Source: Clavelina lepadiformis (taxonomy: Eukaryota; Chordata; Ascidiacea; Aplousobranchia; Clavelinidae). From it: a stretch of 64,000 nucleotides of DNA. The position numbers and the translations under genes are program-made. The first letter of the stretch is position 1. Every line of letters begins with the position of its first letter. The DNA lies in NCBI RefSeq assembly GCF_947623445.1, contig NC_135247.1, positions 5,210,501-5,274,500 of the forward strand, written 5' to 3'. The notes under the pieces are model-generated. The model was not told the origin of the DNA. It saw only the letters and a list, made by a program, of their open reading frames with translations, and did no database searches. Below, piece by piece: positions 21,710-63,757 of this stretch.

Positions 21710-22372
21710 TTAATCAATACGAAGCAAGTCAACTTCAAAAGTTAGTGTAGCATTTGAAGGAATTTTAGCTTCCGGTTTACCATGCCTACCGTAAGCCCAT
21801 TCAGGTTCAATAACAATTTCTGCCTTTTCTCCAACACTCATGGTTAGCAAAGCTTCATCCCATCCTTTAATCACATTGCCTTTTCCTACCTTGAAAGACA
21901 GAGGCTGGTTTTTTTTACGCTTAGATCCTGGTTGTAGACTATCAAACACAGTGCCATCTGCCAATTTTCCTACATAGTAGCAAACAACTTTATCACCCCT
22001 CTTTGGAAAATTTGCTTTGTCCCCCTTTTTTAAAACAGTCTTCTTGTATCTTGGAATTTCAACTTCAATTTCTTCAACTTTTTTTTGTTTCTTTTCACCC
22101 AAAGTCAAAGCAGCAGTTGCAGTTGAAACATTTTCCATTGGTACATCGTATTCTGATCCCTTGAAAGCTTTCTTGGCAAACATTTCATTGTATGCCTTTA
22201 CAAGATTATCCTTTTTGGAAGTTTTCACGACATTCTTCAAACTACCCTGCAACTTCTGATCGGCTAAAAATCGCTGAGCAGCATTTGCTTGAAGGAATTG
22301 GATAACGTCTTTCTTCCCAACTTGCTCAGAGGCAATTGTGGCATCGTCCCAAGGTCGATCAATTTCTGCCAT
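21710..22372 (-). CDS. FKBP3: FKBP25-type nuclear peptidyl-prolyl isomerase
   Basis: Catalyses cis-trans isomerisation of proline peptide bonds; in mammals FKBP25 is nuclear and binds nucleic acids, chromatin modifiers and rapamycin. The 220-residue protein aligns along its full length with human FKBP3 (224). Residues about 1-73 are the basic tilted helix bundle found only in this FKBP (KKDVIQFLQANAAQRFLADQ, LVKAYNEMF). Residues about 108-220 are the FKBP domain, with YYVGKLADGTVFDS, the active-site core VGKGNVIKGWDEALLTMSVG and EWAYGRHGKPEAKIPSNATL. A basic stretch SKRKKN (150-155) lies where mammalian FKBP25 has its lysine-rich loop. The gene has no introns, unlike the vertebrate gene, and sits on the opposite strand inside the CRAL-TRIO array. 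Confidence 0.96.
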   Translation of the reverse strand: MAEIDRPWDDATIASEQVGKKDVIQFLQANAAQRFLADQKLQGSLKNVVKTSKKDNLVKAYNEMFAKKAFKGSEYDVPMENVSTATAALTLGEKKQKKVEEIEVEIPRYKKTVLKKGDKANFPKRGDKVVCYYVGKLADGTVFDSLQPGSKRKKNQPLSFKVGKGNVIKGWDEALLTMSVGEKAEIVIEPEWAYGRHGKPEAKIPSNATLTFEVDLLRID

Positions 22373-23681
22373 AATTTAGGCTATATTACTTGTATTTATA
22401 AAACAATTAATGAGGATTTTCAGCAATTTTTAAATTCAACCACTGTTGGACACACATGAAGCATTTAAAGAAACAGATTGCAGTGTACTGATAGCCCAGG
22501 CCACAGAGCTTGGCATACTTGAACTCGGACTGCTTCTCATGAGCTTCAGTGCCGGTCTTATAGCGCATTATTTAGCACTTAATGACTTGGACAGAACTTT
22601 TGTGCACTTGATTTAAAGTCTGAATAAGTCAAACTTTCATTGTGTCCGAGGATCTTTACACACCACACTTGTCATTTTTAATTGTTTGTTGCACCTAAGA
22701 TCTTGCTGAAAGTGGCCATACTCTGCAGTCCAGCTGGTAGCTCATAATGCTAAAAGTCAAAGACTTTTTTTAGTTTTCAAGGAAAATTTGCATTTGTAAA
22801 GATTAAGCATTATAATTATATATCAAACATTATAATTTGGTTTCACAATCCTTTATGCAAGTTGCGATAAACACATTTATTTGGTTTTCAAATTTAAATA
22901 TTATCATAATTCGGAATCTGTTTATCAGGACTAGGCTACTGAACAGGAGCAAGCATTACCAACAACTCAACACGCAGACAGGGTAGCCTACTGGTAGTTT
23001 TTTTGGCACCATCCTCTTGGTATGGTATTGAAATCTACTAAGACAGTGCAGACTAAGTAGGCACAATCTTTGCAGATTTAAACTTGGCTAAGTGCTTAGT
23101 CTATAACTCTGTAACTTCATAACGTTGGTACTGATTCATTTAGTTAAGATGTTCAAACACAATGTCATTGCCTCCACGAGAAACACATGCTTTTTTCAAA
23201 AAAGTTATAAGTTGCGCTTCATATTTTTCAATCATTCGGTCTGCAGTGTTGCCAGGCGAGTCCAGTCGATACAGAGATGATGACCCCAAATGAACTGAAC
23301 TTGCTACTTTTATCTCGCGCTTGCCGCTCCTGGCCACCTGGTCTCACCAAAAGCACTCATCTCTACCATCGATGAGGGTCGTAAACAAAAGAGCGGGCGC
23401 TATTGTTAAAAACAGCCTGCTACTGCTTGCTGCTCAGTCACTGACAGGCTGCTGTTGGTCACATAATCAACAGCTGTTTAGTTTTTCAACAGAGAGAGTG
23501 GCTCATGTGAATTTCAAGAAAAGCGTGCATTAATTTTTGAAATATAATATTTTTTAAAATTGGTCTTGGTTATGTAGGTGAGGATAGGTTAATTTATGTT
23601 TACGTACCAAACAAAACACAGGTCGGTTCCATTTGCCTGACTGAATTGTGGTAAATTTCATCGCTATTTCAGTATTGTTTA
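22373..23681. other. Upstream of FKBP3; no gene identified
   Basis: The FKBP3 promoter should lie next to 22,372. A word of about 35 bases near 22,698-22,735 resembles 12,064-12,100. A minus-strand open frame (23140-23337) contains RDRMIEKYEAQ-like sequence but has no partner exons that I could find. Nothing else is supported. Confidence 0.35.
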
Positions 23682-31994: not shown

Positions 31995-32228
31995 CTAAAA
32001 TAACTCTTTCTCTTTTCTGAGATTTTGTTGCTTCCATGGAGGTAAACCGTAAAATTCCTCTTTGGATATTTCAAAAAGATCAATAAAATCTTTGGCGGAG
32101 AGATAAGTTTCCAAATGATTCGGATCAACGCCTTCTGGGAGCGGGGAGGCGCGTAACTCCTCCAAAGTATAGGTCAATCTAGTGAAGGTGGCCAGGGCGT
32201 CTTTGATTGGGAGAGGCTTCTTCGCTCG
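31995..32228 (-). CDS. SVIL: Supervillin last exon: villin headpiece
   Basis: 77 residues and stop. After [20 protein letters not shown] comes the headpiece, [19 protein letters not shown] to [15 protein letters not shown] at the C-terminus. It carries the P-W-K-Q---L-K---LF core of the family. Headpieces of villin bind F-actin; that of vertebrate supervillin is reported to bind actin weakly or not at all, so its activity here is open. Confidence 0.95.
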   Translation of the reverse strand, partial: RAKKPLPIKDALATFTRLTYTLEELRASPLPEGVDPNHLETYLSAKDFIDLFEISKEEFYGLPPWKQQNLRKEKELF

Positions 32229-38200: not shown

Positions 38201-41200
38201 TGTTCAAGCCTGGTGCGTCATGTTTGACGTCATCGATGGTAACCGCCGGCTGCTCGACAACAGGCACAGGGAGGACTCTCCTCCTCATGGATGGTGATGG
38301 AACAATGGGAATCAACTTCTGCCCGTCTACAGCATTAACATTCGAGTGATTATTTTTGATGTGTAATTAATATTAACGTTTACTTCTTAGCTTATTCTGT
38401 TTAATAATTGTTTCATAAAACAGATACCAACTGAATACTGAAATGTTCCTAACAACTTCGAATTATCATAATATTTTGACAAACATTAAATTAAAACAAA
38501 AATGTTACCCTTCTTCGCGATCTTTGCCTGAACAGTGAACTGCGAGGCATCGTTCTGTTGTCCTGTTTTATTCTTCCAGTTCTCTGAGTTGGACATGATT
38601 GAGTTGAGGCGATCGCTGATTCCAGCTTTACTCACCGCTGATGCTCGGACCTCTTTGGGATCGGACTGTTTATTTTTCTGCAAAAAATTATTTGAAAATT
38701 TAAAAATATTAACTTGTCATACATGTTTAGTTACCAACCAATTGAGAACTACCGATAACTAATCAAATATTTTTCAAAATGAAGAAAATAACAAAACTCT
38801 ATAATACGATGTTTTGGCTTCTTGATTTATTCTTGAATTACCGTGACTTGAATTCAATTTCTGAAATCTTATTATTTTACCTTCCATTTCTCTTCGTTTT
38901 CCTGGAGCAGCACCATCCGATCCCCCAGTGATGACTTGACAGTCTTCCTTTCTTCTTTTATTCTCTTCTTCCATCCTTCCTCCTGGTTCTTGTTGAGCCG
39001 TTTCAATCTAAGTAGAAAAAGATATCAACTTTTCAAAATCAAACGCATTACTTAACAGAAAACTCAAAACATACTTCAAGGTTAAAATTCACTCTCATTT
39101 ACTGAATTTTCGGAATTTTTTTGAATTTCATGATCTTAGATCACACCTGTCATGAATCGAACCAGTTGCTTTGATTTCGGTTTCTCTGTTCTTGCCCATG
39201 TCTGAGCCTTCACTTGAGCACAAGGACACAGAAGAGCAGTCTGAGATTCTTCGCCTGTAATAAGTTTCGACAAAAACCAATCAAGGAAGAGTCAAGTCAG
39301 TGAAAACAAAGGAAAGTGTTAGTGATTGCAAAGCAAGTCAGACAGAGTGCGGACAAGTCTTACTCTGAGGAGAGTGGACGAACGTCCGGACTTCTTGAAC
39401 GTCTCCGCGACGATGGGGAAGGCGGAATTTCGCTTTTATCCTGGCTAAATTTCCTCCTGATTAAAATAAGAATTAAAAAATTAAATGCTGAAAATCGAAA
39501 ATAGTATCATTACCAGAGAAAATATTATTTCGTTATGAAATGTAGTTGTATAAAACTATCATTCCACAATGCACTGTGTTATAGTATACAATTTTGAACT
39601 AGATTGTAAATTCCGTATAGGATTATGCATTGAAATTTGTCCAATACTTACGTAACAACTGGGGATAATTTTCCAACTTTTTTTTCGTTTTCACTCGACA
39701 GAGCTTTTAATGTCTCATCTTCGGGAACTTCCCCGACTGAAATACGTTCTCTGATGGCGGGATAACTGTCAATCGATAATCGAGTGGGCCGAGCAGTTGG
39801 AATTTCAGTTGTAGATGAAATGTCTTTTTGTTGCTCACTGTCTTCCTCAGCGAGCTCAGTGATCGAGGACGATTTTTTTAGCTGTAAAGCACGCATATTA
39901 GTAAACTACATTTTGACAAAAGAGAAAACGTCGTGAAACTTTGTTCCAAAACCGATACAATAAATATAGACATATGTAATATAACAATGTTATGCAGAAA
40001 AACCATGCCTTACATGTGATAGATCTTCTTTCTTTTCCTGGTATTGCTTCTGAGCTTCTTCTAAGGTTTCGCGATCTACTGGCTGGGTTTGGAAGCGTTT
40101 CAATGAATTCCGGGACCTTCCGGAAGATTCTACAATAATGTATCAATTAATGTTACAAAACACGAATGACAGGGGGGGTTAAAAAGGTAACCCCTTTTGA
40201 GCATGTTTATGCAAAGGGTCTTACTTCGTGCTGGACTTGGTGGTGCTTTTGAAACAAGCTGGTTAAAGAAAGTAAGACGATCTGCGAATGACAGCGGTTT
40301 CTCCTCCTCTTCCTCGTTTTTATTCTCTTTATTATCTTGTGTCGCCCTACCATAGCACGCCATCGTTAACTTTAAACGCGATGGTTTGCATTGTTATAAT
40401 TGATAAATAATAATAATTATTCTATAATAATAACAATAATAACCTAGGCTATAAAGTTAATTTGCTGTATCACAGCAGTAAAGCTTGCAAAGTTGTCACT
40501 AACTATCAGCCCATCAATGGCAGCTTCGTTGTCTACAGAAAAAGGGCTTTACTATTCTAAAGCATAAAAACTACAAAAAGCGTAACAATTAACAACACAA
40601 AACACATATCTTTTATTAAAAAAAACTTTGTGTTAAAGCGTTTAGTTACTTGGCTGCTAGTTTTAGGCACAAATTTCATATTAAAGTTTTTCACAGAGCT
40701 TTTTGAATTATTGTCAAGATACAGTATGAAATTTTTTTAATCAAAGTCCACCAAATTAAAGCCAAATTAGCTACATTCAGTTGATTCCCATTCACGTCCT
40801 TTGGTGTTTACTGCAAACTTATGAACATAGTAAGACAATTTTATACATGTCGTATTTAAAACCCGCGCAACAAACACTGCGCAAATAACAAACGAAAAAA
40901 GTTTCTTAACGTATGTCGAACCAACACCAGAGTTTCTTATTCTTATTCTTTCGAAATGAGGTCTCTACAGTTGCTTATATAAAAATTGAGTGTATTACAC
41001 ACGTTAAAGTGCCATTTAAGTAATAGCTTAGCCCCATACACATATTTATACATTGCTAGCCAGCTGGATTCTAGTGTTTCTAATATACTAGCCCGACTAA
41101 TCAAGCCTATGTGAAGCTCTACAACCTAACTACAACTTACATTTTGGGCGCCAGAATAGAAGTTCTAAATACCAAGAACTGTAATAAGCACAAACAGCTC

Positions 41201-47200: not shown

Positions 47201-50200
47201 TGGTAGCAATTACGTTAGTTATACGCGAAATAGGTAAATAAAGTTACCCAGCCAAAGTGGTTATGTTTGGGGCCATGTTTTAGCTGTGTTGGACACATTT
47301 TATTTTATGATTAAGAAGCAAGAGACTTACGTTTGTTCACGAACTCGTTCCTTTGCAGTAGTGACGTCATCACCCGTGATTGGTTGCGTCATCGATCGTT
47401 GAGTGCGTTTCTTCTTTCGGGCCGAAATTTTACTCTAAAATTGACAATTTTCGTCATAGGTTTTGGTAAACACTAAACACTTTAAAACAATGCTTTCATT
47501 ATTCTGTCGATGTGGAAATTCATGCACCTCACCTGTATAGCTGACTTTTGTGATGGCTTTGCTGGTTTTTTGAACACAGAAACGTTTGCTGGCGGAAGTT
47601 CGTCTTGATCTTGAACTGCAGGTGGACTGAAATTAAAATTGAAAGTTTAGAGCATCGAACAGAATACTGCTGATTTCCTTAACAATATTGTGCAAAATAA
47701 ACTGTTTCATGCAAAATCAACCCACATGCCTGGTAAGTGCAACTGGTATTTGTGTTGTATCGTCCATCGTTTCTTTTTACAATTTATTACCAAAAATACA
47801 ATTTTTGTTCTGCACCAAAGATTTTTAGTATTTTGTGTATTGATTAAAGAAGCCCTATAGCAGTACAGCTGACACAGTGAAAATGCATTAGGTCTAGTCT
47901 TTATCCACTTTGGCGTTTATTTTTTTTAAACCACAAAAGGCTAAAACTTTAGATTTTTTATTGTTTGTCATGTTGGCCATAGCGCACAGACAGATAATAA
48001 TAGATCACATCCGCGATCAGTTTAAACATGGTATTTCGTGTTTGCTTCTCAAATAATTGTCGATATCAAACCGCTCTTAAATCTGTAGAAACTTCCTCAT
48101 CAACACACGAGAGCTATTGATAATGTAAAGATACGGGTTAAGGGGAACGCCTTGGTTGTAAGGAAGGCTGTTATATTCTTATGGTAAGTTTCCATCATGT
48201 TTAACACTTCCTCAAATCTTAATAGGTTAGTTATGTCGCCATTTCAGTCGAACTCCTTAAGCAAATCAGCTAAATCTTCCAGAAGTGTTACGAAGTCTTA
48301 GTTTGAGCAGATCGACTATCAATTACGCAAAATCAAATTTAATGCTGTTCTGTCAACTTATAAGCTACAGTATGTGCTATCAGTGCTCTACACCCAAACA
48401 AACCGTAAAGTTAAGATACATCTATGTTATACGAACCCAAGCGCTTTTAACATCAATTGCTTAATTAATTATCAATGACAATTTTGACCATAGTACCGCT
48501 CATCTAACATTGGTTGCGAGCAAGGCAAACAAGAGGTATATGACAAGATTTGACAACGCAACGAGCAAACTGGTGTGTCGATGTCGTATGAACAAAAGAA
48601 TAGGAATGGAGCGAACTTCATTACAATGTAACAGGACCACTTTTATGGCGTTTAGGAAACTGTATACCATTCTTATGGCAATTTAAAGCGTGAAATTAAA
48701 AGCTTTCAATGCGGCATCTCTAGGTCTAGGTTCCGTGCTTTTCATCTTAGCACATATTACGGTTTTTTAAAAGCTTTATGGCCAGGCTTGACCATTGTAG
48801 ACTGTTGACATTGTACAACTGCACAACAAAATGCGTTTCCAACATTATCTAACTAGAAGATATTTTTAAAATGTCTTCGCAAGCATAAGCTTGCTTCATC
48901 GGGTTTACTAAGAGATGGCCAAGATCAAGATATCGTGTATACCATGGTAAAGAGCTAAAAGCTCATAATATGGGGTAGAGCTAAAAAAACGCATTTCTTG
49001 AAAACTGAACAACTCAATGTAATTTAAAGATAATTGGTAGGTGCGTTAAACGGAAAGTATTTTCATGCCATCTTGACATGTACACGGCTTATTAGATTTA
49101 AAAAAATAATATCGCGCATGCACATGACGCCCCTCTTCCCAAACACTAATTTGAAGCCTCTTCCCAAAGCTTTGCAGTGCCTTTAGTAACATCTCATCCA
49201 GCACAGCTTCGACATCTTGACTGATGGATGTTTTACTTTTTGAATCTGGTTAGTTCGTGTAAACCCAGGATTTCAGATATCTACGCAAAAATATGCTCTT
49301 GCTGCGTGTGCTGTGGCACTACCTTGTTATAAAAACTCATAACAATTCAAGCCAGATAAAACTTTCAAACTCGTGTCAGAATCAAACCTTACAACTCATA
49401 ACGTAGGAGTCAATCGCGCTAACCTTTGCGCCATTCAAGCTTTACCAACAGCAGCAAGATCGATTTCAACCCTGAGCCTACTGGCTCGTGAATTTGCTCC
49501 GCTGGCGACTGATGTTCGCTTAGGCGTTTGTAGACTTTAAAATATCATGAAAACGCCTTTTATTTAATGCAACAATCAATTGTTTAGCTTTCAAAACCAT
49601 GCAGCTTTTCTGTTCCACCGTAAAAAGTCAACCGGTTAAGCATCTCGTTAGCGCTACCAAGCGGTTAGCACAGGTATACGTCCACCCGCTAGGGAGCAAA
49701 CAAGTCAAAATTAAGGTACAAACGGAAAATGCCCAACTTCAAAGTTTACATTATATTAAGCCAAACCATGTTGAATACATTACCGTAACCTCAACTTATC
49801 CTGTCGCCTGTCTTTCTACGCATTCAAGTAGTGTCGTAAGCAAGACCGTTGGTTCTTTTTTATTGTATGACATACTGTAGTTGGATGTAACAACAAGCGA
49901 ACGACACTGAAACTATTTAGCATAGAGCGAACGAAAACAGAACTGCACATTAAAAAAAATAGCAATTTGATTGGATTTGAAGCTACGAACAATCTAAATA
50001 GTGATTATCACAATGGAACGCGTACTGAACAACAATACTCAATTAATTCACAAGTATAGTAATTTGTAACACTTAACAAGGAAACTGATGTAATGTGGAA
50101 TTTTCAATTCCAAGCCGCACTTGCTGTGAGAATGTTTTGACGTTCATTTCCGGGTTTACAAGCATTCCTGGACATATTTGTAGACTGGGCGACGAAAGAA

Positions 50201-53200
50201 TGTTTTGCAGGATTTTGGTTTGGTCACAATTCAAAGGTAGGAATGGGAATTGATGAAAAAACAAACGCACATCGAAAAGCAAAGTGATGAAAATTAACAG
50301 AAAAAGTGACTTTCGTTCACAGAAAACTACCTGATTTTGTAATTTACATGGAAAATTAGTTAAGTGAAGAACAGATGATTGCACCCACTACGAATATCGT
50401 TGAAATCTAAAAATAATCATAGTATCATGTAGAATTATAGGTATAACACTGCCAGTCAAAATATGTTGGGGCTAAAAGGCTAGAAAAGCACGATTACAGC
50501 AACTGCAGACATCACTTCTATAACAAAGTATGTATACACTGTACATATTGGCCATCGGGCTAGTTATGTAGTTTTCAATATGTATGTTGACTTTTGCACA
50601 ACGTGTTATAAAAATGTTAGCAATTTGAAAGGTTCTAAACTGGAGATTAGACAAGACAAAAATTAGGTATCTTCTACCTATATATGTTAAAAGCAACGAG
50701 GTCGTATTTTCATATCTCTCAATTAATGAGTCAAAGTCTGCTTCGAAAACGTGATGCGGAAACGGTTAAGTGATTATAGCGTTGTGAAAGCGATGTCACA
50801 AGCCTGTACACTATACGGGCCTGCCACGTAATAACTTGTACAATACGACAATGAAGTAACTTGAAAAACAGTAAGTAGTAACATAATGCGTGTAAATTGC
50901 ATTGAAACGTAAGTTTTCGGTGGGATGGCATAGCGGTTAATACAGGCAATATGTACATGATAAATATGCAAAGCATATCATTGCTTAGCTATTCCGTTCT
51001 TTATGTTTTTGAAAATAAGGTTATACGACAAATGGATTGTGTTGAATGACGGCCAGTCAGTTTCCGGTAGAGGTTTTAGAAGCGGGGGATTTCAAATAAT
51101 TTTGAATAAATTTAAAAACAAATCCCGGATTTGTTAATAAGAAAACTGGCTGAAATGCGCTGTCGCACGCCTGAAACACGTGACATGCTGTACAGAACCA
51201 GTGGAGTTTTCCATTACAAACATAGAGGATGAAATAGTCGTTTTACTATTCCTCAGACGTCTTTAAGCTTGCATGATGACGACTTGAGTATGGAAAAGGT
51301 CAAAGTTCAACTGAAATCACGATGACGCAGCGGAAAACAAAAACAACTCGTTTGCACAAAAGATATGGCAGCAAAAAAGTACGAAAACGCATGAGATATA
51401 TAATAGACTAATCCGCGAGACCCTCAACTGTCTAACTAAACCTGACTAACAATGTTAGTGTTAGTATCTTTTCTATCTACCTTTCGTCTTCATCTTCGTC
51501 GTCTGTCGCTTGCTTATCCAAGACGTCTTCAGCTTCATGTACATTGGCTAAATCCGGTTCGACGGTTGCGACGCTTTCCTTAATTAGATCCTGAAGCGAC
51601 CTGGAATAAAAAAATTCAGTTAACTGGGCACCCTGGCCTATGTCCTGCAAGTACATAGCAAGACTATAAAGGATCTTAGAAGAAATCTTATAGAAGCGAA
51701 AACGGCACATTTTCTATGACCGAACACTTACACTTTTCTTGTTACTTCTGGGCGCTCCTGCCTTCTCTGGCTTGTCTTCCTTTCCCACATTGCTCGCATG
51801 TTGTTTACTTGTGGTTCGGCAGGTGCTGGTTCTTCGTCATCAGAGGATGACGTAGACGATATTGTGGGTACATCGGACAAACTCTCCTCGGACTCGAAAG
51901 CGTCATCCACGCCGTGGCCGTTGGTTGGGGTTTTCACGGGGGTTTCGGGTTTACTGGGGAGTTTTGATGGTGTCCGCTTAGGGGTCACCACCGGAGAATG
52001 TGCCTTGCTCTCAAACACATCCTTTACATTGCTGACGCTGGTAGTGTCGCTTTTAGACGAAAGTTCAAGATTGCTTCTCCGAGGTGATTCAAAATCATCC
52101 CCGTTTCGTTTTCCAAGATTTCGAAAAAGTGCCTTTGCCCCATGCAATCGACCCATTGTTTGGGGATCGAAAGCACCATCCTTCTTTGCGTCATATCCGG
52201 TCAATTTCTTCGTTTTCTTATTCTCCCACAATGAGCGCATCGATCCCACGCTCGGAGTATCAGCATCATTACTCTCCGATTTTGCATCTTCATCTCGACT
52301 CTCTTCCTCGAACGACGTGTGACGACGTTCTTTTACCGGGGTTGAATCGGGGGTGGTTTGGGAGCCCCAGGCCGCTTTCGTTTCCCCGACCTTACCCCGA
52401 ATCTCAATAAGATCATTTGGAGGAGATGAAGAGCGGACTGGTTTTCGTTTCTCCTCCGATTTGGTCTCCCAAATTGCCTTCATGTTTCCGACTTTAGGGG
52501 TGTCGTGCAACGTAGACGCGTTGTTATTGGTGTTCGACTTCGATGACGAAGCGATGGCGTCATCACGGACGTGGCTGCGCTCCTTTGTAGATAGGGAAGT
52601 AGACGAAGGCAACGTTTTCTTGCCTTTGGAAGCCGAAGAGGAAGAGGTGTCGCTCGCCTGTAAAACAACAGGAAGATGTGAGCGTCCAAGGGCGGTGATT
52701 GACAAAGATGGCTAAAACAAGTGGCCCTTGACGTTAACTGATAAATCAGGAAGCGAAAATTTGAGAAAACCGTTCATGCAACATAATACTGTCAACGTGG
52801 ACTGGAATAATCAGGGAAGTGATGTTATGTAAGCTCTAGCTAGTCAGTCAGCACAAAACGCATCACATGACGAATTGAACTACATTATACGTGTAGCTAC
52901 CAAGTCAGACATTTTCTGAATGTCCGAATTAAACGTGATATGACACGATGTTGAAATCTATCTAAAGTAGAGCACGCTCACATAAAGTGACAGAAAATGA
53001 ATGAAAAATAGCCCAGTGGTGAAATTAAATACGTTGCTAAAATGTGATCAGCGAAGGTGTGTAAAAGTGATAATGCTTAAGTAAGCACTGTTTTGATTTA
53101 GTAAGGATTACATAATTTCCTGCTTAATTCATTCGAAGAACCCATAAAAACGACAATAAAACATGTCACTGATTGTAGCATCATCGTAATTTTGTCATCA

Positions 53201-56200
53201 TAGGTAATGCCAGGAAGTAATTAACAACGGTACCCACACCAAGCTAGGTTTATTTACGTCCTGTGTTTACCTAATTTGAAGCACGAAGAGTGTATGAGTA
53301 TGGCCTATACTGACTACTGTACAGGGCATCAAACTCAGTCGTGTAGGGTTGTTTTGATGAAAAAGCTTTTCATTATAACAAAATATAACAAACAAAACAG
53401 GACTTAAAAGCAAATCAATTTTAGCAAATTATCACCTAATAGAATGAATATAAAGTTGACTTTACAGTCTACGTCATAAAGATACCGGTTCGTATGAGTA
53501 ACACACATAAAGAGCACAACACAAAGGTAGTCATAACTTACCCCGTCCTCGAGCCAAGCCACGTCAATATCACTCCCATCGCTGTCAGCATCAGAAAAGA
53601 TCGAATCGTTATCAGATGAAGATGAATCCGCTCTGTACTTAAGTACAGCTTGCCTGAGTCTCTCCTTACGCTGCGCTTGAGATAAGCGGCGAAACTTTGA
53701 AAATCCGCTGTTTTGGGTTGAAATAGGTTTAGCCACTACAGACATTTCTTTCGTTTCGTGCTGGCCCTCGTCTTCTACGGTTTTCTTCGGAACAGGTGTT
53801 GCTGCTGGTACATGAGCAGTAATAATAAGACTTTCGGGACAGTAGTCTATTTCAGACGAAAAGGGCTGAGAAAAATCGGTTGTTCCAGTTACGCCGGGTT
53901 CAGCTGTTTTCGTACTCTCTGGAATCGATACAGTAACAGGCTCAATTGGGGAATTTAAAGCGGTGTCGGCGCTTTTCTTCGTTTTTTCAGTACAGATTTG
54001 TTTAGGCTCGAACTTTTCTACTTCTTTGTTGCGTATGTGAGCTAACTGGGTAGGCGCTGCGCTCTCCCCTTTGCTTTTTTCTCTTGATTGTGACGTATTT
54101 CCGGTTGACAAACTACTTCCTGTTACTGGTTTGCTCGAAGCAAGAGATATTACCATTGACTCGGGGAGCTCTATTTCTGGTATGACATCCGCTGGACTTC
54201 CCTTGGTGTCCAAAGTGGATTCAACTTGAGATGAACTCGGCGTTGTGGTTGCGATGATGCTTTTGCGATTGCTGCTGTCTGCCAGGCTCTGCCTAAATCC
54301 ACGGTTCTTGATAGTTTCTATTTCCTCGGACAAACGCCTGAACGTGTTGATGGCTTCGTCGGCGTTGTAGTTAATGTCGGAATCAGCACCGTTTGCTTCT
54401 GCGCGCTTGCGTCTTCGCGAACGTCTTTTTGTGACTATAGAACCGTCCGCTAGCTCTTCTGGTAGTTGGCTAGTCGATCTGGTTACGTTGTCGTACAGGC
54501 CGTTCTCTTTTACAGTCTGAATGGGAGGGCTTGGCTGACCTTGTTTCAATGAAATATCTTTTTCATTCAAACCGGTGTGACTGCTCTTGCTGACCGCGGG
54601 AGGTAATGAGATAACAAGGTCGGCTTTTGAGGTTGCCTTCAACCCAGCTTTTTGCGTTTGGAAGTCGTTAGAAATCACGAAGCGCTCAGGCTCAGCTATG
54701 TCACTGAGCGGTTGAAACAACCCTTCGATTTCCGCGGGCCTTACATCATCCGAATGATGATGCTTTTTGGAAAATGACGATGAATCACCAGTCTCGCCCG
54801 CTGTGGCGGTCGCAGTAGTAGCTAAAACATACAAGTAAATTACGTCAACGATCCTTAGCCTGTGTAGAACACGAAACTTGAACAAGATTTAATATTAATG
54901 AATGAACATGCTATGATACGCCGTGAACTGTTGGCCTGAATACTGTATAAGCAAAACCGCAGCAGGGCTCAGAAATAGATTAGTAAAAACTGAAAAGCGT
55001 AAGGTTACAAACAGGGGTCAAACAGACGCGTAACTGGAAAGGAAACGTAAACGATACAAGAGAAATCTTAATAATGGTAAACAAACAGAGGCCTATTCGC
55101 ATGTCACGTAAGCCGTTTAACCAAAACAAACCCGTCGTCAAGAAAGCCACACCAACAAAACAAGATAATGTACTGGCAAGGGCTTTTATGGAAGCACACC
55201 GCAAATTACAGCTGGTATCGGGCGACGATGATGTTGACGGCCTTATGTATAAAACATTTTGTCTGTTGGTGGACGTATACGGTAAAGCTACGCCTACTGA
55301 TAACCAATGACTATGACGTTGCTGCAATTGAGGACCAATAGAAGCTTATTACGATCAATCAGACAAAAATAGAGCTTATGTGACTGTACAGTGTACACCG
55401 ACACAGTAGGTGCGGCACAAAAGACATGGAACCACGTAAACAACAACATTCTTCGTCTGGGTGATATCATTATGACACGAAATCCTTTATTATACCTCGC
55501 AATATACGGGACTTCCAGAAGTGTAAGCTATTGGGTTACGGTTATAATATCGGAAAGGTTGTTCGCTGCGTCATTAAGAATAAGCCATCGATTGTCTTAA
55601 ACAGGTATAATGTAACAATAGCCGATAGCACTTCTGCTCGAGAAACAAAAACTTCAACACGATAATCGGAAGAAATTGCCGAAATTCAAATTATGACAAT
55701 AAATATGACAATGAAATATTATAATAAAGTACAGGATATTTAGATAAAATATATAACGCAAATGCTACGGCCTTTCTACCTGAAGTTCGGTTGCTTTCAA
55801 ACCCGACACATTTGTACATTAAATTACTTACCGTTATGGTTGTTAGAAATTGGTGTGGCTGCAGCTGTCCGGACTCGCTTGTATCCGTGCTTTGCAGCAG
55901 ACTTGCGCGTTATGGCTGGGGATTTTATATCCACATGCGAAAATGTATTTTCGTCCAAGTCTACATAGATCACGCCTATGAGTCAGGCTCAATTTTGTCT
56001 TACAAGGTTGAAACAGACGGCGCTTCTGCGCTCTTGACTCAATAAAGTAACGACTGGCCAACAGGCTCTAAAACCGGTTTAATGAGTACTTAAGTTAAAC
56101 TGTGTGCTGTAAAAATATAATTCTTGTCACTTGATTTCAGTTTTACTGCTGTAACCACGTTACGTTATAGGTTATGCAAGATAAGTCTTCCGTTACAATT

Positions 56201-59200
56201 TGAATGATGAATAGTCGGCGCTGGTTATTCACGTCTATGTTGACTTAAGCCTAGACAGTAATCTATTTCAAAGTCAGCAAACCTATTCTGAACCTATTTA
56301 TTAAGTATTGCTACTGTGTGTTTGTGTGTGGCAAAGCATACGTGATCGCACTTAAATGTACAGTAATCATGAGAGCCAGAAGCACGGTGATTATGTCATT
56401 ACGAGCTTCGGCTATTTACAAATCACATTACGTTGGCAAAAACCAACAAATATGAAAAATATTAACCCTTTAATGTAGTCTGCCTTCTTATTTAACGCTT
56501 CAAGTATAAAAAAATGTCTTAAACGCTGCAATTTATTTGCGTAACACTAAGCAAAGCCAGATTTTGGCTAAAAAGGAAAGGTTAGCGTAATCTATCAATG
56601 ATTATACGATGCTAACGCTAAAACTAAGTAGGTTTGTTTTTAAATCTGTCACTTCTGTTTCGAAATCTGGTAAGAGAACCATTTACCAAATATTCCTGTT
56701 TATGCTTGAGTAACCGAAAGAGTTAACCATCACTTTGAAACGCTAACTTGGCGCTATGTTAAAAATACTGTAGCGGCGCTTAATTGAAATGAGGGCGTAC
56801 TTAGATGTCATAATGACACTTGTGGAAGTTTAGAAAAGACTAGACAAAAGATTTAAAAGATCTGACATCACAAAAGACTAATTAACCTTCGACTGAAATC
56901 GGTTTTTGGCCGATTATAAGCACATTTTAGAAAGAACCTTTTCTAACTGATTCTGCCACCATAAGATATAAAATTACTATCGCCACCGTGACACCACATT
57001 TTGTGTGCGAAAAACTTGAATTAGTAATGGCCTAATCATAAATAAAATATGACCGTGAAGTCGTTTGGCATACGTCAACGACGTAAAAACAGTCTTGCCA
57101 ATATATAGAAATGCACTCTTTGCCACAATTGTAGCGAAAATTCATTAACTCCGAGCTGAAGTGAACCATTCGAGTTTATACAAAGTTTTAATTGTCCAAT
57201 GTCGGTAAAACTGATACCATAATAATTATAGCGGATTTCCGCTGTATATAATTCGGGCCAAAAATATATACGATGTTACCATTACAAGGAACTTCAGAAA
57301 AATGATAACATTATTAATGTATTAATGAAACATGAATATGCTTTACCCGGTGACTTTGGTGTACCCGTTGTCACATCAAGTGACGCGCCTTCTGTAACTG
57401 GCACAGGCTCCACAGTGGGAAGGTCCTGTTTGTTGGATATTGTAGGTGATTTCCTGGAGCGTGTTCTAGGTACATCTTCAAAATTAAATGCAGTTAGTTA
57501 AAGTGAAACTGAACTTGAATAAACTGAAGTGCTCATGTGTGTGAACAAAACTTGGTGAGTTTCAAACACATGCATTTTCTCAGCTTAAAAAATCTCGCTT
57601 TGCTCAACACCGCCCCGTATCGGACAATCATGAGTGTGACAATAGCCTAAATACGGAAGAAAAATGTCGCTAATCCATGCAAAACAATGTTTGTGATATA
57701 AAAAATATTCAAGACCGTGCTAAAAGAAACTCGCACATGCTTCAAGTGCAATGTCAAACACACGCAGTTATTACAATTGACCAGGAGAGGTCAGTTGCAC
57801 AATATTGACATGCTTGTGTTGATTTATGAATCTATAAGCATGCTAACACCTTCAACTGCTGTTAACGAATCGATGACCATTTTTAAAGAAGGATCCATAA
57901 AATTGAGCCATTCGTCGTCAATCATTTCCATGCTAGGCAAATTGTCTGAATAAGATCAAGAGAAGGTTGGAAAGGGCACAGACCAGATAAGCAAAGGAGG
58001 CAAAATGCAGAGGAATGTTAAAGCACGGGAAAGTTTAAAATTTCGTAGTTCGTTACAATTGGCTGAAGTTGAAAAGTAGAAAGCCTGGAACTGATGGAAA
58101 GCGGAAAGCCTAGTTATGAATTTTTGGGCAACTTCTAAATTCATTCAACTATTAACTTACATTTTACGTCTTTATGTTAATTATTTGAAACTCTTATACA
58201 TAATGCAAACAGTGAAGTGTTCCTTCTAATACAAGACATCGGCTTGTAATTGAAGAAAAAAACATCGTGACCCCACTTTAAACGAAGCTGGTTTTAACAA
58301 GGCAAGCAGAGATTTTTCCCACTCAATTACCCGGCGGTCCACTTCGAGTTACGCTTTGATTAGAAACAACACCAGGATTATTACCAATCGTTTTCGTTAT
58401 CAAAAATCAACTTTTAAGCTAGAGTAAGTAAAGACGCAGTAATAGTCTAAAGACAAGTTAACAAACGAGCCAAACAAAGACTATGAATAGACAAGTCATC
58501 AGACAACATGGGACAAGCACGTACTATTATAACATGCCAAAATGCCATACCAATTTTCTTGACAACTGCATTAGTTCGAAATACGCAAAGCGCATGCACA
58601 ACGCAAACATACCGTCTCTTGTTCTATGAGATCCACTGGGTGGTTTGTCGTCCCTGTGTTCGGTGAGTTTTGTTGGACTTGTAACGTCCAGTGTTGGATC
58701 CGTACTGCCATGCCGATGCCTCGATCTAAGCAAAACTTACATATGAATAAGGTTGTTACATTTGACACAGCGACCGCAAGTCACAGAAGAATGAATGAGA
58801 TTTAAGTTATGGCGGTTGGTAACCAAAACTTTGTCCAGTAACTTGAATGAAAACAATAGGAACGTAAATACCAGGTGGGCAGGACAAACTTTGTTCGAAC
58901 AAGCTCAAAAGCGAACTTTTATTGTAATTGTCGTCAGATCTCCTTTAAGATGCCAACCCAATACACGTGATATTGAAAGACCACGAATGCGAAAGACGCG
59001 CAACAAACTATCACTGCATGTTTATCACTAACTATAACTGTAACGAACATCATTCTCCACTTAAAATGTTTACAGAAATAGGCTTTCTACAGTCCGTAAA
59101 TGACCCGTGATTTATGACCAAAGTTTTATTTGGTCTTCAAACAAATACTACTTACTTTGTAACTGTCATGGGCGGTTTGCTTGTGAATGCAGAAGTGGGT

Positions 59201-62200
59201 GAAGATGTCGATGCTTTGCGCATGCGCTCCTTGTGTCTTTCAACAGCCATCTCGGCACGTGACTGTTTGCGTTGCAAGCTTGGAATAGAACTTGTATCAC
59301 CAGAATTTTCAGGTGAACCCGCTGGCGTTGAACTTGCAACTGTGATGTCATAAAGCGTAACAGACTGCAATCGCCATATAGGGTAATTGCAATGTGTTGC
59401 ATATACCAAATCATTATAGATTACTCCAGGATTTAACACTTCTTGAATTAGTATAGGATTACAGGATACTATACACCATATATTATATCAAATCGTTGCA
59501 AGAATGGCGACAAGTGCAGAGAACTTCATAATTTATTGAATACTGGCATGTTTCGGACCTTAAACTTGTCCTTCCTTAGAGTAAGTCGCTGAATGCACTA
59601 AGTACAGTATATAAAGGACAAGGTGTGATAAACGAGAAAACACATCATCCACAGAGATAAGATTGTACCACAGGTAGCGCAACACGAAAACAAACACTGG
59701 GGTCCGAACTCCGAGGAAGGACCAGTTTAAGGTCCGAAACATGTCAGTATTCAATAAATTATGAAGTTCTCTGCAGTTGTCGCCATTCTTGCAACGATTT
59801 GGTATAAAAAAGCAATTTAAGCTCTCCCCGAGTTATACTACCATATATTATATGGGATAGTTACGTAACCTGTTAGCTGTACATATCTACAAACTCAGCT
59901 TACATGAATCTGATGGCGAGGTAGTTTCCAAGTTTTCAGAAGACGTTTTTGATCCAACTATATCAGTCCTTTCGAATATTAAAATCATAAGCACATTAGG
60001 CATAACCACTATATTAAAGGCATATAGAAAACGCATCGCCAAAAAACTTAAAACAATAACATGACAGTTTAACAAACAAAAAAGTTTACTTTTTAACCGT
60101 ATAGAAAGAATACCTGGTTTTAGAGCCATCATCAGCAATCTTCCCAGCACCAGATGGCGGTAGAGAAGACTTAAGTTCATCCCGATTGGTTTCTCGACGT
60201 TGAGAACGTAATGCGTCCTGTGATGATTGTCTTTCAAATTTCGCGATGCTGTCACTGATTCGTTCCTTCCTCAGTGATTGCCGGAGGGAGCGGCTCTGAC
60301 CCTTGGGCTGCCGGGTCGTTGATGGCACCCTAAAAATATACATTGTGGAACAGAAATTAAAGCTTGTCACAGATACCCGGTTGAGGACATTGCACGATTT
60401 ATGTATAGACTTATGCTGAACCTTTAAAGAAAGAGTGTACTTTTTGACAATTTCATTTCAGAGAAATTTAAAATTTCAACTGCATGCTTACACATGGGAA
60501 ACTAAATAATTCATATTCCCTGCAGCTGTTAAGCAAGGCAAGCAACAGATGTAAAAGAAAATGCAACATCTGCAATTTGCAACAATTCAACAGTAAAAGT
60601 CAGTTTGAAATATATATACTGTTGATATTGAGACATTATATTATTAGACTATAGCAGTGGTTTTCAAAACCGTGTACTCGTGTGCCGTAAAATATTTGCA
60701 GGTGCGCCGCAAATAATTAAGATGTTAATAATAATCAAGTTAGAAACGCCGCCAACTTTGGCATGAAGCCCACAAAATACGATGTGACTGTTACCTTCAT
60801 CGGCACATGACCCACATGACTAAAATATCAAATATTTCTCCCCCACGCTCTCACAACACAGTAGAAAATCATCCAGCGAACCGACCCGTGCTTTGGTTAA
60901 AATACAATATTTAAAACGAACATTAGCTTGAAAGTCATCCTGCCTGCAGTCCAACATTTTTCAAAATTTCAAAATTTCAAAAACAGTCCATGTAAAAATA
61001 TTTCAGTAGTAGTGTTTAACAGTAGTGTTAAAATAAGCAATAGTTTTGTTTTATATTGAGTAGAAGTAATTGTCTTCTTTCTATATGATCACCATATTTG
61101 TGGGAAACAATGTAGGAGGAAGCCTAAAGAATTGAGGGCATGGAGAGACGATTCCAAGGCCTGGTGTCAAGTTTATGACAACAATAAAAACAATAGCGGA
61201 AAACAAATTATAAATGTGGTAAAATGCTAGAGAAGGATCGTTGGCTCGTTGCAAACGTTTGACCCAAATTTTGATGTGAAGTTTTGGTGTTGGACATTAT
61301 GCTGCGTTATTAATCCATAAGCGTTTTGACCGGCATCAATGCGCGTGAAGCAGTAAATAAAGAAGCCTTTTCCCTCTTAAAGCATCTTAAATGCGGCTGT
61401 TAGTAGTTTTGAAGAATTTTCTTGGCTATACAGTGAAAATCTACGACTAAGGTGAGTAGGTTCTAAAAAAAATCGTAGGTTCTAGGTTGGGTGTTTATCT
61501 TATAACTATACATGTTATTTATAAAAATAAATTACCACTTTGTTCTACTTCAATAATACGGTGTTCCGTTGTCCTGTTTTCATCTAATTTGTGTGTACCG
61601 CGAAATACAAAAAGTAGAAAACAAACCTGCTTTGTACAGGTATGTTCAATTAATTATTAATCGAGCTTGATTCACAGACTTTGTTGTTTGAATTATTGAC
61701 GCCAATAGACTTATTTGTATTTGGTGGCAAACGTGGGCTTTCGATCTCGAAGTAAATCAGTGATCAGATTACAGCACGCACTGAAGTGAAACCACGTTCA
61801 ACTCTCGGGAAATTGCGTAACTCACAACATTAAATGACTAATTTTAGTCATTTGAAACACTTTACGAGGCACAGGTTGTAAGCGTATACCATTAGCCAGA
61901 TGACAAACTCCTCAATGAAGAGCAATATCTTCCAATGCCTAATTTACGAAAGCGCACCAAACGAAATGAACAAATAGTTGTTCCTATACTCAGGCAATAG
62001 CTAGCCCAAGGATTTTATTGGTCTCTAAATTAAAGACACTATGACGTCCTTATAAAAGAAACAACATCATTAAATAAAACTTAAAGAAGACAGACACGAC
62101 CCCTTGACCTGCACAACAGCACTTCTCGTATGAAAGTATTACATATACACACCATTTTTAAGAAACATTTTAAGACCTTCGAAAAACAAAGCATTCAAAC

Positions 62201-63757
62201 AGCACGTTTGAATTGACATACAGCCGTTTAACGTACTAATACTACCAAAAGAAATCGTGATACTAAATTATTTATAACCCACTCGATCATGTATGCTGTG
62301 TACGTAAACGTAAATGTTCAAAACAAACATTTGACAATCACCATTTATTTTTAAGGTAATCTTTAACAATGCATGCTAATACCTGTACGATCTTCGAAAG
62401 TTAGACATTGGCTGCTGCGCTTCTTCAGCAGGATATGGATCTTTACGGTAGGATCTTTGAAATGATGAGGATTTGGAGTTGTTCGACTTCGTTTCCCTCT
62501 GAAAGCGTGAGAGATTGTCAAGAAATTTGTTCTTTGCCTTACTGGCTATCTCAATCTTCGTTTCCGACTTCTTATCGGATTTCTTAGAGTCTCCCATCTT
62601 GGTGGTTGTTTTCTTATCAGACTTCTGCATGTCGGTAAGGTCTTGGCTTGCCACGTTCTCTTTCCCAGGAGTCCTTTAAGGTATAACACAATTCAACGAG
62701 ATGTACTATTAAACTTTCTCCTAGGGTTAAATCAATCAAAAAATGAAATCTAAAATTTGTTCTAAATAACTTAGCCATCTATGCTTTACGGAATATACCG
62801 CAACGATAAACCCGTTGGGCTCCACTAATCTTAGTGAAAGTCGAAACTAAAGCCATCTAACCTAACGTTTTTATGACAAACGCGTTTAATGACAGGCCCT
62901 TGCGCAAATGAAATTGCTTAGAGGGAACCAGAGGCAAATATTTTCTTTGTCAGACGATTATTGACATAATTTTACTCCGAATCTCTTAAAAGACGTGAAC
63001 GGCTTAATGTGCTCGCATTGTTCACAAAGGCAACAGCACAGCAACGTGCAAACAAACGCATATGGGACTTGACAGAAAGGTGCGAAGCTGATACTTTACA
63101 ATGGTATGAGGTGTCTTTATCAAGATTGTACTGGATAATATTTCGTCATGAGCGATTGATCTTTATTTGGTTAAATTGGAATAATTAACAAGTGTAAACC
63201 ACCATTACGTGAAAACAAAGCATGTTTCCCTTCTCAATTTCCTTTGAAGTAATTAAATACAATTCTTGTATTTCGTGGTCTATAAATAACGCTTTCCCGA
63301 AAAGGTATTTCCGTAAATGACAATATACCACATGACGCTATCCCGAAATCTACGAATTGCAATCTCGAACTTAAACAATGCTGTTGGCTGGAAGTACGAA
63401 TGTGACAGGGAACATGATTATCGGTAAAGAGGTCAAGCCCGTTATTTCCTGGTACGAGTGATTATGTTATGACTATGAGAATAAATGTATATATTGACAG
63501 TTTTACAGCATTCACTTTAGCATTTTTAGGAAAATTGGACACAATTATTGTGCTGTATCGTACGCCATGACCGACATCAACTAAATGTATCTTGTTGTAT
63601 TGGTAAAAACATCACGCTGACGTCATACCTGATAGATCTCTGGGAGGACCGAAGTCCATTCCTTGAAAAATCCTCCCTTCCATCCAGATGCTTCACAGAA
63701 GTAGAATAAGAGCCAGCTCGTATCATGATTTCGGAATCATTTAGGAACACTTCTGGC
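31995..63757 (-). CDS. SVIL: Supervillin (5' end beyond the window), 43 traced exons
   Basis: A membrane-associated actin- and myosin-binding scaffold of the villin/gelsolin superfamily. Exons read downwards: 63757-63629, 62673-62383, 60329-60114, 59968-59904, 59339-59156, 58725-58613, 57945-57850, 57475-57347, 55915-55832, 54821-53542, 52657-51732, 51600-51481, 47626-47533, 47434-47331, 40346-40225, 40129-40014, 39881-39652, 39456-39364, 39254-39147, 39007-38881, 38677-38509, 38326-38145, 37965-37783, 37696-37577, 37458-37327, 37208-37129, 37000-36850, 36707-36583, 36506-36419, 36251-36129, 35936-35779, 35690-35552, 35392-35308, 35240-35096, 34881-34668, 34474-34371, 34285-34231, 34117-33980, 33775-33673, 33441-33223, 32802-32665, 32452-32337, 32228-31995. 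Every junction keeps frame, giving about 2,608 residues in the window (human archvillin 2,214). Vertebrate-conserved words include [62 protein letters not shown] and [15 protein letters not shown]. Confidence 0.93.
32337..37208 (-). CDS. SVIL: Supervillin gelsolin-like repeat region
   Basis: Seventeen exons (37208-37129 down to 32452-32337) encode the gelsolin-like half. Recognisable blocks in order are: [13 protein letters not shown] with [61 protein letters not shown] with [92 protein letters not shown]; and [12 protein letters not shown] with [10 protein letters not shown]. In the family these act as scaffold rather than as severing domains. Exon sizes are 55-219 bases with short introns, unlike the 5' part. 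Confidence 0.93.
37327..40346 (-). CDS. SVIL: Supervillin central region (TQP motif and myosin/actin-binding part)
   Basis: Eleven exons cover the conserved end of the N-terminal half. They contain [16 protein letters not shown] (human SLAEKLALFNKL), [16 protein letters not shown] (human TQPVTLGEVE), a [19 protein letters not shown] and [10 protein letters not shown] block followed by its weaker repeat [17 protein letters not shown], then [13 protein letters not shown] (human TQFTVAGRMVKKG), [12 protein letters not shown] and [20 protein letters not shown]. In vertebrates this region binds F-actin and myosin II. Predicted charged coiled or disordered sequence predominates. Confidence 0.9.
40347..47330 (-). 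other. Supervillin intron, about 7 kb
   Basis: It joins phase-2 exons (CAA AC | G GCG). No repeat or nested gene was recognised in most of it. A candidate 56-base exon with a strong acceptor (T-rich, ending tgtctgcag) and donor (CAGGCG|gtaagc) lies at 44216-44271 on the minus strand, but its length would break the frame unless joined to another exon. An in-frame ATG lies just 3' in this intron (40361-40363). Its size compared with the surrounding introns suggests an internal promoter or regulatory DNA. Confidence 0.5.
47331..47434 (-). CDS. SVIL: Supervillin exon with the conserved TQPIT motif
   Basis: 34 codons: [20 protein letters not shown] and [15 protein letters not shown]. It matches human supervillin LRRLQDRSLTQPITTEEVV. 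The basic run before the motif is retained. It ends in phase 2 and joins the exon at 40,346 in frame (EQTATQDN), which shows that the exons on both sides of the 7-kb intron belong to one gene. Confidence 0.88.
47627..51480 (-). other. Supervillin intron, about 3.9 kb
   Basis: Phase 2 (GAA AG | T CCA). I found no exon that fits this phase. A minus-strand open stretch at 49046-49246 (66 codons, [20 protein letters not shown] inside) follows a possible acceptor but has the wrong phase. Plus-strand frames at 49599-49880 and others look accidental. Confidence 0.4.
51732..52657 (-). CDS. SVIL: Supervillin large exon with caldesmon-like W-E-x-K repeats
   Basis: 308 codons, low-complexity, rich in Ser, Lys, Asp and Thr. 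Five 12-residue units recur: [12 protein letters not shown] (52460-52495), [12 protein letters not shown] (52358-52393), [12 protein letters not shown] (52217-52252), [12 protein letters not shown] (52004-52039) and [12 protein letters not shown] (51776-51811). The pattern, V-x-N-M-(K/R)-x-(A/L/M)-W-E-x-K, is like the C-terminal caldesmon words NIKSMWEKG and SKRNLWEKQ, which contact calmodulin and actin. I know of no such repeats in human supervillin. The exon joins both neighbours in frame (phase 0 in, 2 out). Confidence 0.85.
53542..54821 (-). CDS. SVIL: Supervillin giant exon, disordered N-terminal region
   Basis: 1,280 bases, 426 codons, phase 1 in and 0 out. It starts [16 protein letters not shown] and is rich in Ser, Thr, Glu and Lys with no folded domain that I can see. 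A basic patch [14 protein letters not shown] is a possible nuclear localisation signal; vertebrate supervillin has such signals. Two related words FRRLSEEIE and [18 protein letters not shown] precede an acidic-serine stretch [19 protein letters not shown], a likely casein-kinase-2 target. Its size and position recall the vertebrate alternatively spliced muscle (archvillin) exons, but the sequences do not align visibly. Confidence 0.85.
55074..55310 (+). CDS. Small open frame inside a supervillin intron (doubtful)
   Basis: 78 codons starting [15 protein letters not shown], with a basic N-terminal half and an acidic-to-hydrophobic end ([20 protein letters not shown]). The composition is protein-like and the start has A at -3. 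No promoter, splice site or polyadenylation signal supports it, the minus strand is also open here, and I recognise no family. Chance is a real possibility. Confidence 0.2.
   Translation: MVNKQRPIRMSRKPFNQNKPVVKKATPTKQDNVLARAFMEAHRKLQLVSGDDDVDGLMYKTFCLLVDVYGKATPTDNQ
55832..55915 (-). CDS. SVIL: Supervillin symmetric exon (possible cassette) B
   Basis: 84 bases, acceptor aaaatccccag, donor G|gtaagtaa. Phase is 1 in and 1 out, fitting between the exons ending at 57,347 and starting at 54,821. It encodes [20 protein letters not shown] then PISNNHN, a basic Ala/Lys/Arg-rich segment. Being divisible by three with equal phases, it can be skipped without a frameshift. Confidence 0.65.
57850..57945 (-). 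CDS. SVIL: Supervillin symmetric exon (possible cassette) A
   Basis: 96 bases, acceptor ttgatcttattcag, donor GAAG|gtgtta. Phase is 1 in and 1 out, fitting between exons 58725-58613 and 57475-57347. It encodes [20 protein letters not shown] then [11 protein letters not shown], an acidic amphipathic segment. The donor is weaker than most in this gene, which fits an alternative exon. Confidence 0.65.
58613..60329 (-). CDS. SVIL: Supervillin N-terminal small exons
   Basis: Four exons (60329-60114, 59968-59904, 59339-59156, 58725-58613) in phase. They encode Ser/Arg/Lys-rich sequence: [57 protein letters not shown] and [17 protein letters not shown]. The [12 protein letters not shown] word is reminiscent of the vertebrate [20 protein letters not shown] block. 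For the exon at 59,339 an upstream acceptor (59,365) was rejected because it meets a stop in the required frame. Confidence 0.8.
59485..59804. repeat. Inverted repeat with 95-base arms, hammerhead-like core
   Basis: The left arm (59485-59582) and right arm (59711-59804) are about 95% reverse-complementary, separated by about 130 bases. Both read, towards the outside, GGTCCGAAACATG, then tcaataaattatgaagttct, then caacgattt. In the right arm the order CCGAGGA, a 5-base stem GGACC/GGTCC closing the loop AGTTTAA, then GAAAC approximates a hammerhead core (CUGANGA - stem II - GAAAC), with one core base changed and one extra A. It lies in a supervillin intron and has no coding frame. Confidence 0.6.
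60330..62382 (-). other. Supervillin intron containing a hAT-like element
   Basis: About half of this intron is the hAT-like element at about 60,655-61,628. In the remainder (60,330-60,654 and 61,629-62,382) I see no exon that fits the phase (2). Confidence 0.45.
60655..61628. mobile_element. hAT-like DNA element, degenerate
   Basis: The left end reads CAGTGGTTTTCAAAACCGTG and continues to gtgtgccgtaaaatat, the classic start of hAT elements. Near 61,600-61,628 the order gtgtaccgcgaaatac, aaaaagtagaaaac, aacctgc is a worn inverse of it. The flanks show no clear 8-base duplication, so the boundaries are approximate and the element is old. No open transposase frame remains. Confidence 0.5.
62383..62673 (-). 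CDS. SVIL: Supervillin lysine-rich N-terminal exon
   Basis: 96 codons plus split codons, phase 2 in and out. It has a strongly basic [20 protein letters not shown] repeat, then [20 protein letters not shown], then two similar words [11 protein letters not shown] and FRRSYR at the exon end. It joins the next exon as [11 protein letters not shown]. Poly-lysine character suggests membrane or nucleic-acid contact; this is inference. Confidence 0.75.
62674..63628 (-). other. Supervillin intron
   Basis: Phase 2 intron of about 955 bases. No repeat, exon or nested gene recognised. Confidence 0.4.
63629..63757 (-). CDS. SVIL: First traced supervillin exon
   Basis: 42 codons plus split codons, acceptor gcttcatacag, donor ATCAG|gtatga. 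It encodes [20 protein letters not shown], then [20 protein letters not shown]. The acceptor shows that at least one further exon lies 5', beyond 64,000. The internal methionine (EIM) could serve as a start if the acceptor is not used, but I consider that less likely. Confidence 0.6.

Follow-up and report, generated by a model that had tools for sequence, protein, structure and literature searches.

A putative array of actin-filament motifs in a disordered exon of a supervillin-like gene

The gene and its probable supervillin identity

The window analysed here, 64,000 nucleotides in all, contains on its minus strand a gene that can be assembled from 15 exons, running from 62630 to 39652 and joined at GT–AG introns in compatible phases into 1,347 residues with no stop. 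The assembled model ends at 39652; the exons that lead to the headpiece, from 39.6 to 32 kb, lie outside it. The parts to which we refer are these:

57347..62630, minus strand: exons a to g; the start codon at 62630 is proposed, and is a guess
60114..60329, minus strand: exon b, a predicted long helix with the candidate word ISDSIAKFE
53542..54821, minus strand: exon h, a low-complexity coding exon of 426 residues that joins exon i in phase 0
51732..52657, minus strand: exon i, 926 bases, a disordered segment of 308 residues with the array, delimited by its open frame and splice sites
51481..51600, minus strand: exon j, which follows exon i; its weak donor, GTAGAT (score 6.0), overlaps an in-frame TAG
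47533..47626, minus strand: exon k, whose phase agrees with that of exon j
47331..47434, minus strand: exon l, which resembles SLTQPITTEEV of a provisional human supervillin sequence (tblastn E 6.0, not significant alone)
40225..40346, minus strand: exon m, preceded by a 7-kb intron
39652..40129, minus strand: exons n (40129–40014, with RFQTQPVD) and o (39881–39652), by splice model
31998..32228, minus strand: villin headpiece, the C-terminal end of supervillin (Pfam VHP, E 2.9e-15; also matched in the PDB)

The splice sites of the model were picked by hand with the reading frame in view, and several are weak, so that the agreement of their phases is not wholly independent evidence. Coding-score scans served for exon finding only; wrongly framed pieces were present in their training sets, two in one and one in the other.

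That the gene is a supervillin, as the first-pass annotation proposed, is supported by the headpiece and by this phase-consistent, but hand-built, model. Compared with the PDB, the headpiece matches supervillin best (2k6m, E 1.2e-14) and villin-1 next (E 7.6e-13), and a gelsolin repeat appears, below threshold, in one of the four pieces scanned (E 0.0096; 16.2 versus 21 bits). A tblastn search with this provisional human supervillin sequence listed 22 matches above 22 bits, 14 of which are colinear from 38.7 to 32.0 kb on the minus strand, at identities of up to 69% and with one match crossing stops. The N-terminal half of that sequence gave seven tblastn matches, none of them significant (E 0.39 to 9), and because of this the link between supervillin and the array described below rests on splice phase and exon order. 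The first-pass annotation also called the supervillin tunicate-type; in the window's own genome, searches for GH6, a gene typical of tunicates, and for COX1 each gave 0 matches, the control of the GH6 search being silent as well.

Five spaced units in one exon

Exon i begins after the acceptor ...TTTTACAG, before 52657, and ends at the donor GTAAGTGT, after 51732. Within it lie five units of 12 residues, whose positions are numbered here after the motif V(P1)xxL(P4)xxxF(P8)E(P9) that we come to in the next section:

52460..52495, minus strand: unit 1, with V at P1, M at P4, W at P8 and E at P9
52358..52393, minus strand: unit 2, degenerate; P1 and P8 are kept, P4 and P9 are not (T and G there)
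52217..52252, minus strand: unit 3, closest of the array to F-tractin (6/12 identical) and helical in a single-sequence AlphaFold2 model
52004..52039, minus strand: unit 4, with F at P8
51776..51811, minus strand: unit 5, helical in the same model, with pLDDT near 80

All five are present letter for letter, in a single open frame of a single exon, and the outer limits of the array fall exactly at 51776 and 52495. To this extent the first-pass annotation, which had reported five spaced copies in one exon, was right. It overstated matters in giving all five a W-E-x-K core: three units have one (WETK, WENK and WERK), but the other two read FESK and WGSQ. From the start of one unit to the start of the next there are 34, 47, 71 and 76 residues, leaving linkers of 22, 35, 59 and 64 residues. 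K or R occupies P5 in every unit, and each of the four tryptophans of the exon stands at the same motif position, P8; the 1,347-residue model has only two more.

The array is real and non-random. A relaxed word, [VI]xx[LIMV]xxx[FWY]E—picked after the units and the paper that describes the motif were known, so that its counts characterise the array and do not amount to a blind test—occurs four times in exon i and not at all in the remainder of the model, compared with a mean of 0.006 and a maximum of one in shuffled exons (n = 20,000). With the whole window translated in six frames (120,518 residues), there are eight occurrences, four in exon i and four elsewhere. The strict word, VxxLxxxFE, is absent from exon i. 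When each unit is scored by a profile from which it has been left out, units 1, 3 and 5 surpass all of 2,000 shuffled exons; the results for units 2 and 4 are weaker, being equalled by 1.05% and 0.6%, respectively, of as many shuffles.

How the units arose can be narrowed to some degree. Pairs of them are identical at 13 to 23 of their 36 bases, and Tandem Repeats Finder lists no array within exon i; recent tandem duplication is thus unsupported, and the array is either old or was assembled through separate small changes. Compared with itself by BLAST, exon i gave the self-match alone, but the units were missed too, making this a weak test of the linkers. In the window's own genome the single match to exon i is exon i itself (six candidates were scored), and of 146 pattern matches in genome_contigs and six in viral_contigs—collections of prokaryotic and viral sequence—none was confirmed as a relative. 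Pfam offers a sole match to exon i, YopE_N, at E 0.05, which is below the cut-off and which we take to be chance; in the PDB there is nothing at E up to 10.

The single-sequence AlphaFold2 model covers 267 residues of exon i at a mean pLDDT of 50.4. The chain is mostly disordered, with four predicted helices: those on unit 3, on unit 5 and on the segment that separates units 3 and 4, plus a short one immediately preceding that segment. Units 1, 2 and 4 are non-helical in this model, and two of the helices fall outside the units. Hydrophobic moments of the units are unremarkable; since F-tractin itself gives only 0.10, we dropped this measure as a test of helicity.

The helical segment between units 3 and 4 (52133–52168, minus strand) misfits the motif at P4 and P9, and scores 2.0 in the two-sequence matrix described below.

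Fit to a published motif, and other readings

A short linear motif for actin filaments, termed SFM and of the form given above, is described in PMC13364712 (Nat Cell Biol 2026), as the helix found in F-tractin and Lifeact. According to that paper, binding requires P1 and P8, its affinity is adjusted by P4 and P9, and SFM peptides bind at 2–12 µM. In its list of 103 human SFM proteins, caldesmon and supervillin (SVIL) stand side by side, and PLEKHG3, SORBS1/2 and SSH2 are mentioned as having SFM repeats.

The five units agree with this motif well. Valine is present at P1 in all five, and P8 is aromatic in all five, as W in four and F in one. P4 and P9 are each kept in four, unit 2 lacking both, so that all four anchors are present in units 1, 3, 4 and 5, whose P4 is M or V. 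The consensus has F at P8, where four of our units have Trp. A two-sequence BLOSUM62 matrix of ITPKA and Lifeact, in imitation of the first round of PMC13364712, gives these same four units 12.0 to 16.0 and unit 2 only 6.0. ITPKA and Lifeact score 28.5 in it by construction; provisional caldesmon words score 9 to 10. In the reverse direction, a profile of the units recognises F-tractin at 14.1 bits (0/5,000 shuffles equal) and a provisional Xin-like repeat at 7.2 (0.1% of shuffles equal). It does not recognise Lifeact or a segment of human supervillin, both as provisional sequences, 27% and 10% of shuffles, respectively, being as good; and its two matches in the PDB (E 0.38 and 0.75) are not actin binders and are taken as chance.

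We think it reasonably probable, judging from sequence, that the five units form a spaced array of SFMs of the F-tractin/Lifeact type, with putative actin binding, located in a supervillin within its disordered N-terminal portion. We infer actin contact here from the SFM rule as published. Motifs of this kind are known already, and the units most likely belong among them; an array in supervillin is a new location as far as our literature searches show, no such array being described in the titles and abstract openings of the matches listed.

The first-pass annotation had likened the units to the words in the caldesmon tail that bind actin and calmodulin, and had proposed a comparison with shuffled sequence. 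That comparison comes out in favour of the likeness: the unit profile scores a provisional sequence of the caldesmon tail at 15.1 bits, a value that 0.26% of 5,000 shuffles equal. What does not stand is its specificity. F-tractin is recognised as well as caldesmon, and the resemblance therefore indicates a shared motif class and not caldesmon in particular. The caldesmon domain, PF02029, has no match in exon i among Pfam comparisons at E up to 10; a search for caldesmon in the window's own genome found nothing, but its control was silent too, so that absence is not established.

Reading the units as SFMs corrects the caldesmon/calmodulin reading, whose functional half—that the Trp words bind actin and are removed by Ca2+/calmodulin—would, by analogy, make the array a switched contact. 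We consider this unlikely. The caldesmon score lends it something, as does the fact that caldesmon's own SFM is displaced by calmodulin (PMC13364712), but that paper states such displacement for caldesmon's own site only. A likeness that extends equally to F-tractin fails to single out calmodulin-regulated sites, and the passages considered from the cited papers make no link between supervillin and calmodulin.

It seems quite unlikely, too, that the array lies outside full-length supervillin, whether near the end of a short disordered protein, produced if exon j is left unspliced and its TAG read as stop, or in a separate upstream gene. The weak exon j donor that overlaps this TAG would allow for it, and so would the hand-chosen splice sites and the insignificance of the N-terminal matches to the provisional human supervillin sequence; yet exons h to o follow one another in compatible phases without a stop, and the supervillin-like TQPIT word of exon l comes in the right order. 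That the units serve a partner other than actin, in the manner of a motif repeated along a disordered scaffold, is an improbable alternative: it would suit the tryptophans, which the published consensus lacks at P8, and actin binding by the units is itself a prediction, but the four SFM anchors are present in four of the five units, and supervillins are a family of known actin binders with a place in the SFM list (PMC13364712). Descent of the array and the caldesmon words from one ancestral segment is very hard to credit, for although the top pair scores do join units 3 and 5 to the two provisional caldesmon words (34 and 33), motifs of twelve residues arise repeatedly, SFMs are argued in PMC13364712 to have arisen separately, and exon i has no Pfam match to caldesmon.

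What the array might do, its likenesses, and its surroundings

If the units are indeed a spaced array of SFMs, then each good unit would form a short helix on F-actin, as in the published structures, its V, M and W face occupying the actin cleft that separates subdomains 1 and 3, with the D-loop of the neighbouring subunit alongside. Single sites would be weak, but four good ones on linkers of 22–64 residues could hold a single filament with avidity, or cross-link a pair. Neighbouring actin subunits are ~5.5 nm apart and, by our arithmetic, a stretched linker of 22 residues could bridge them. Unit 2 probably binds weakly or not at all. The site of F-tractin on actin overlaps those of cofilin and myosin (PMC11809415), and for this reason the array might compete with both.

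Units 1, 3 and 4 have Ser or Thr at P-2 to P0, positions at which phosphorylation is expected to weaken SFM binding, according to PMC13364712. More speculatively, kinases might loosen the grip of these three units in this way. Exon i as a whole has 11 Ser/Thr-Pro sites compared with 5.5 in shuffles (0.86% have as many), a modest excess.

An odd resemblance becomes, with this reading, a testable claim tied to a known structural rule: one exon with four good sites and one decayed, joined by flexible linkers. Should it prove true, Trp at P8 in an array would join the repertoire of SFMs, and supervillin would gain a multivalent grip on filaments. Of the 11 SFM genes dated in PMC13364712, 10 trace to vertebrate or younger ancestors and, if the organism is not a vertebrate, the array would bear on how SFMs arise. 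One might go further and suppose that a Trp-type array, [VI]xx[MLIV][KR]xx[WF]E, has long belonged to the supervillin of invertebrate chordates, where it is under selection, and that vertebrates reduced it to one weak site; that it acts as a phosphorylation-tuned, multivalent clamp by which a membrane scaffold rides along actin filaments or cross-links them; and that such a cluster predates most of the SFMs that have been traced. Taken together this is rather unlikely, and we offer it as speculation.

Several known systems invite comparison. With ITPKA (F-tractin) and Lifeact the array has in common V at P1, a hydrophobic residue at P4, an aromatic one at P8 and E at P9 (PMC13364712 and PMC11809415); it also shares with F-tractin a basic P5 (PMC11809415). 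Those two have a single copy with Phe at P8, whereas the array has five spaced copies, one of them degenerate and most with Trp. PLEKHG3, SORBS1/2 and SSH2 resemble it in having several SFMs per protein, but belong to other protein families, and are likened to it here by name only (PMC13364712). Caldesmon has words of the same type, binds actin and is listed among SFM proteins in the same source. It has two such words and calmodulin displacement, in contrast to five words here and no caldesmon domain. The two, at its C-terminus, we take to be VxxIKxxWE and VxxKRxxWE, and caldesmon is presumably the only SFM protein with Trp at P8.

Among vertebrate supervillins and archvillins, the headpiece is our best match, and the disordered N-terminal region has sites for F-actin and myosin II, as cited in PMC6192639. 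The unit profile, when applied to VAQLRSAFL of the provisional human supervillin sequence, is equalled by 10% of shuffles, and the word scores 13.0 in the two-sequence matrix. It is, we assume, the one weak candidate there, compared with five units here. Xin repeats (PF08043) are regular repeats of 16 residues, V...A...FE, with a FETQPLD end. They are likewise short, repeated actin-binding units, but the spacing of the array is irregular, at 34 to 76 residues. PF08043 has no match at E up to 10 in exon i or in four other exon pieces, in searches whose HMMER filters drop most weak matches. PMC13364712 cites a paper on Xin repeats as its reference 73.

TQP words at 47331–47434 and 40014–40129, both on the minus strand, look similar to FETQPLD, with which Xin repeats end; the Pfam Xin model is unmatched.

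Exon b has features of its own. In a 71-residue model (mean pLDDT 80.5) it is predicted to form a helix of 45 residues (model residues 11–55). This helix contains the word ISDSIAKFE, which at 17.5 in the two-sequence matrix exceeds every unit of the array; its hydrophobic moment ranks at the 99.7th percentile within the gene model. It could act as a sixth site for actin, or else belong to a coiled coil.

Elsewhere in the window other features came to light. In the intron between exons c and d, at 59500–59810, two inverted stretches of ~60 bases, CAAGAATGGCGACAA.. and the reverse complement ..CCATTCTTG, flank a segment that, judged by eye, resembles a small mobile element with inverted repeats. 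On the plus strand, between 14480 and 26643, are four similar single-exon ORFs of 283–297 residues, at 14.5, 16.5, 19.6 and 25.8 kb, the last of which encodes a CRAL/TRIO protein according to Pfam; they look like a tandem family. Finally, the ORF at 21710–22375 on the minus strand lies in a single exon and encodes BTHB and FKBP_C domains; it resembles FKBP3 and, because it has no introns, could be a retrocopy.
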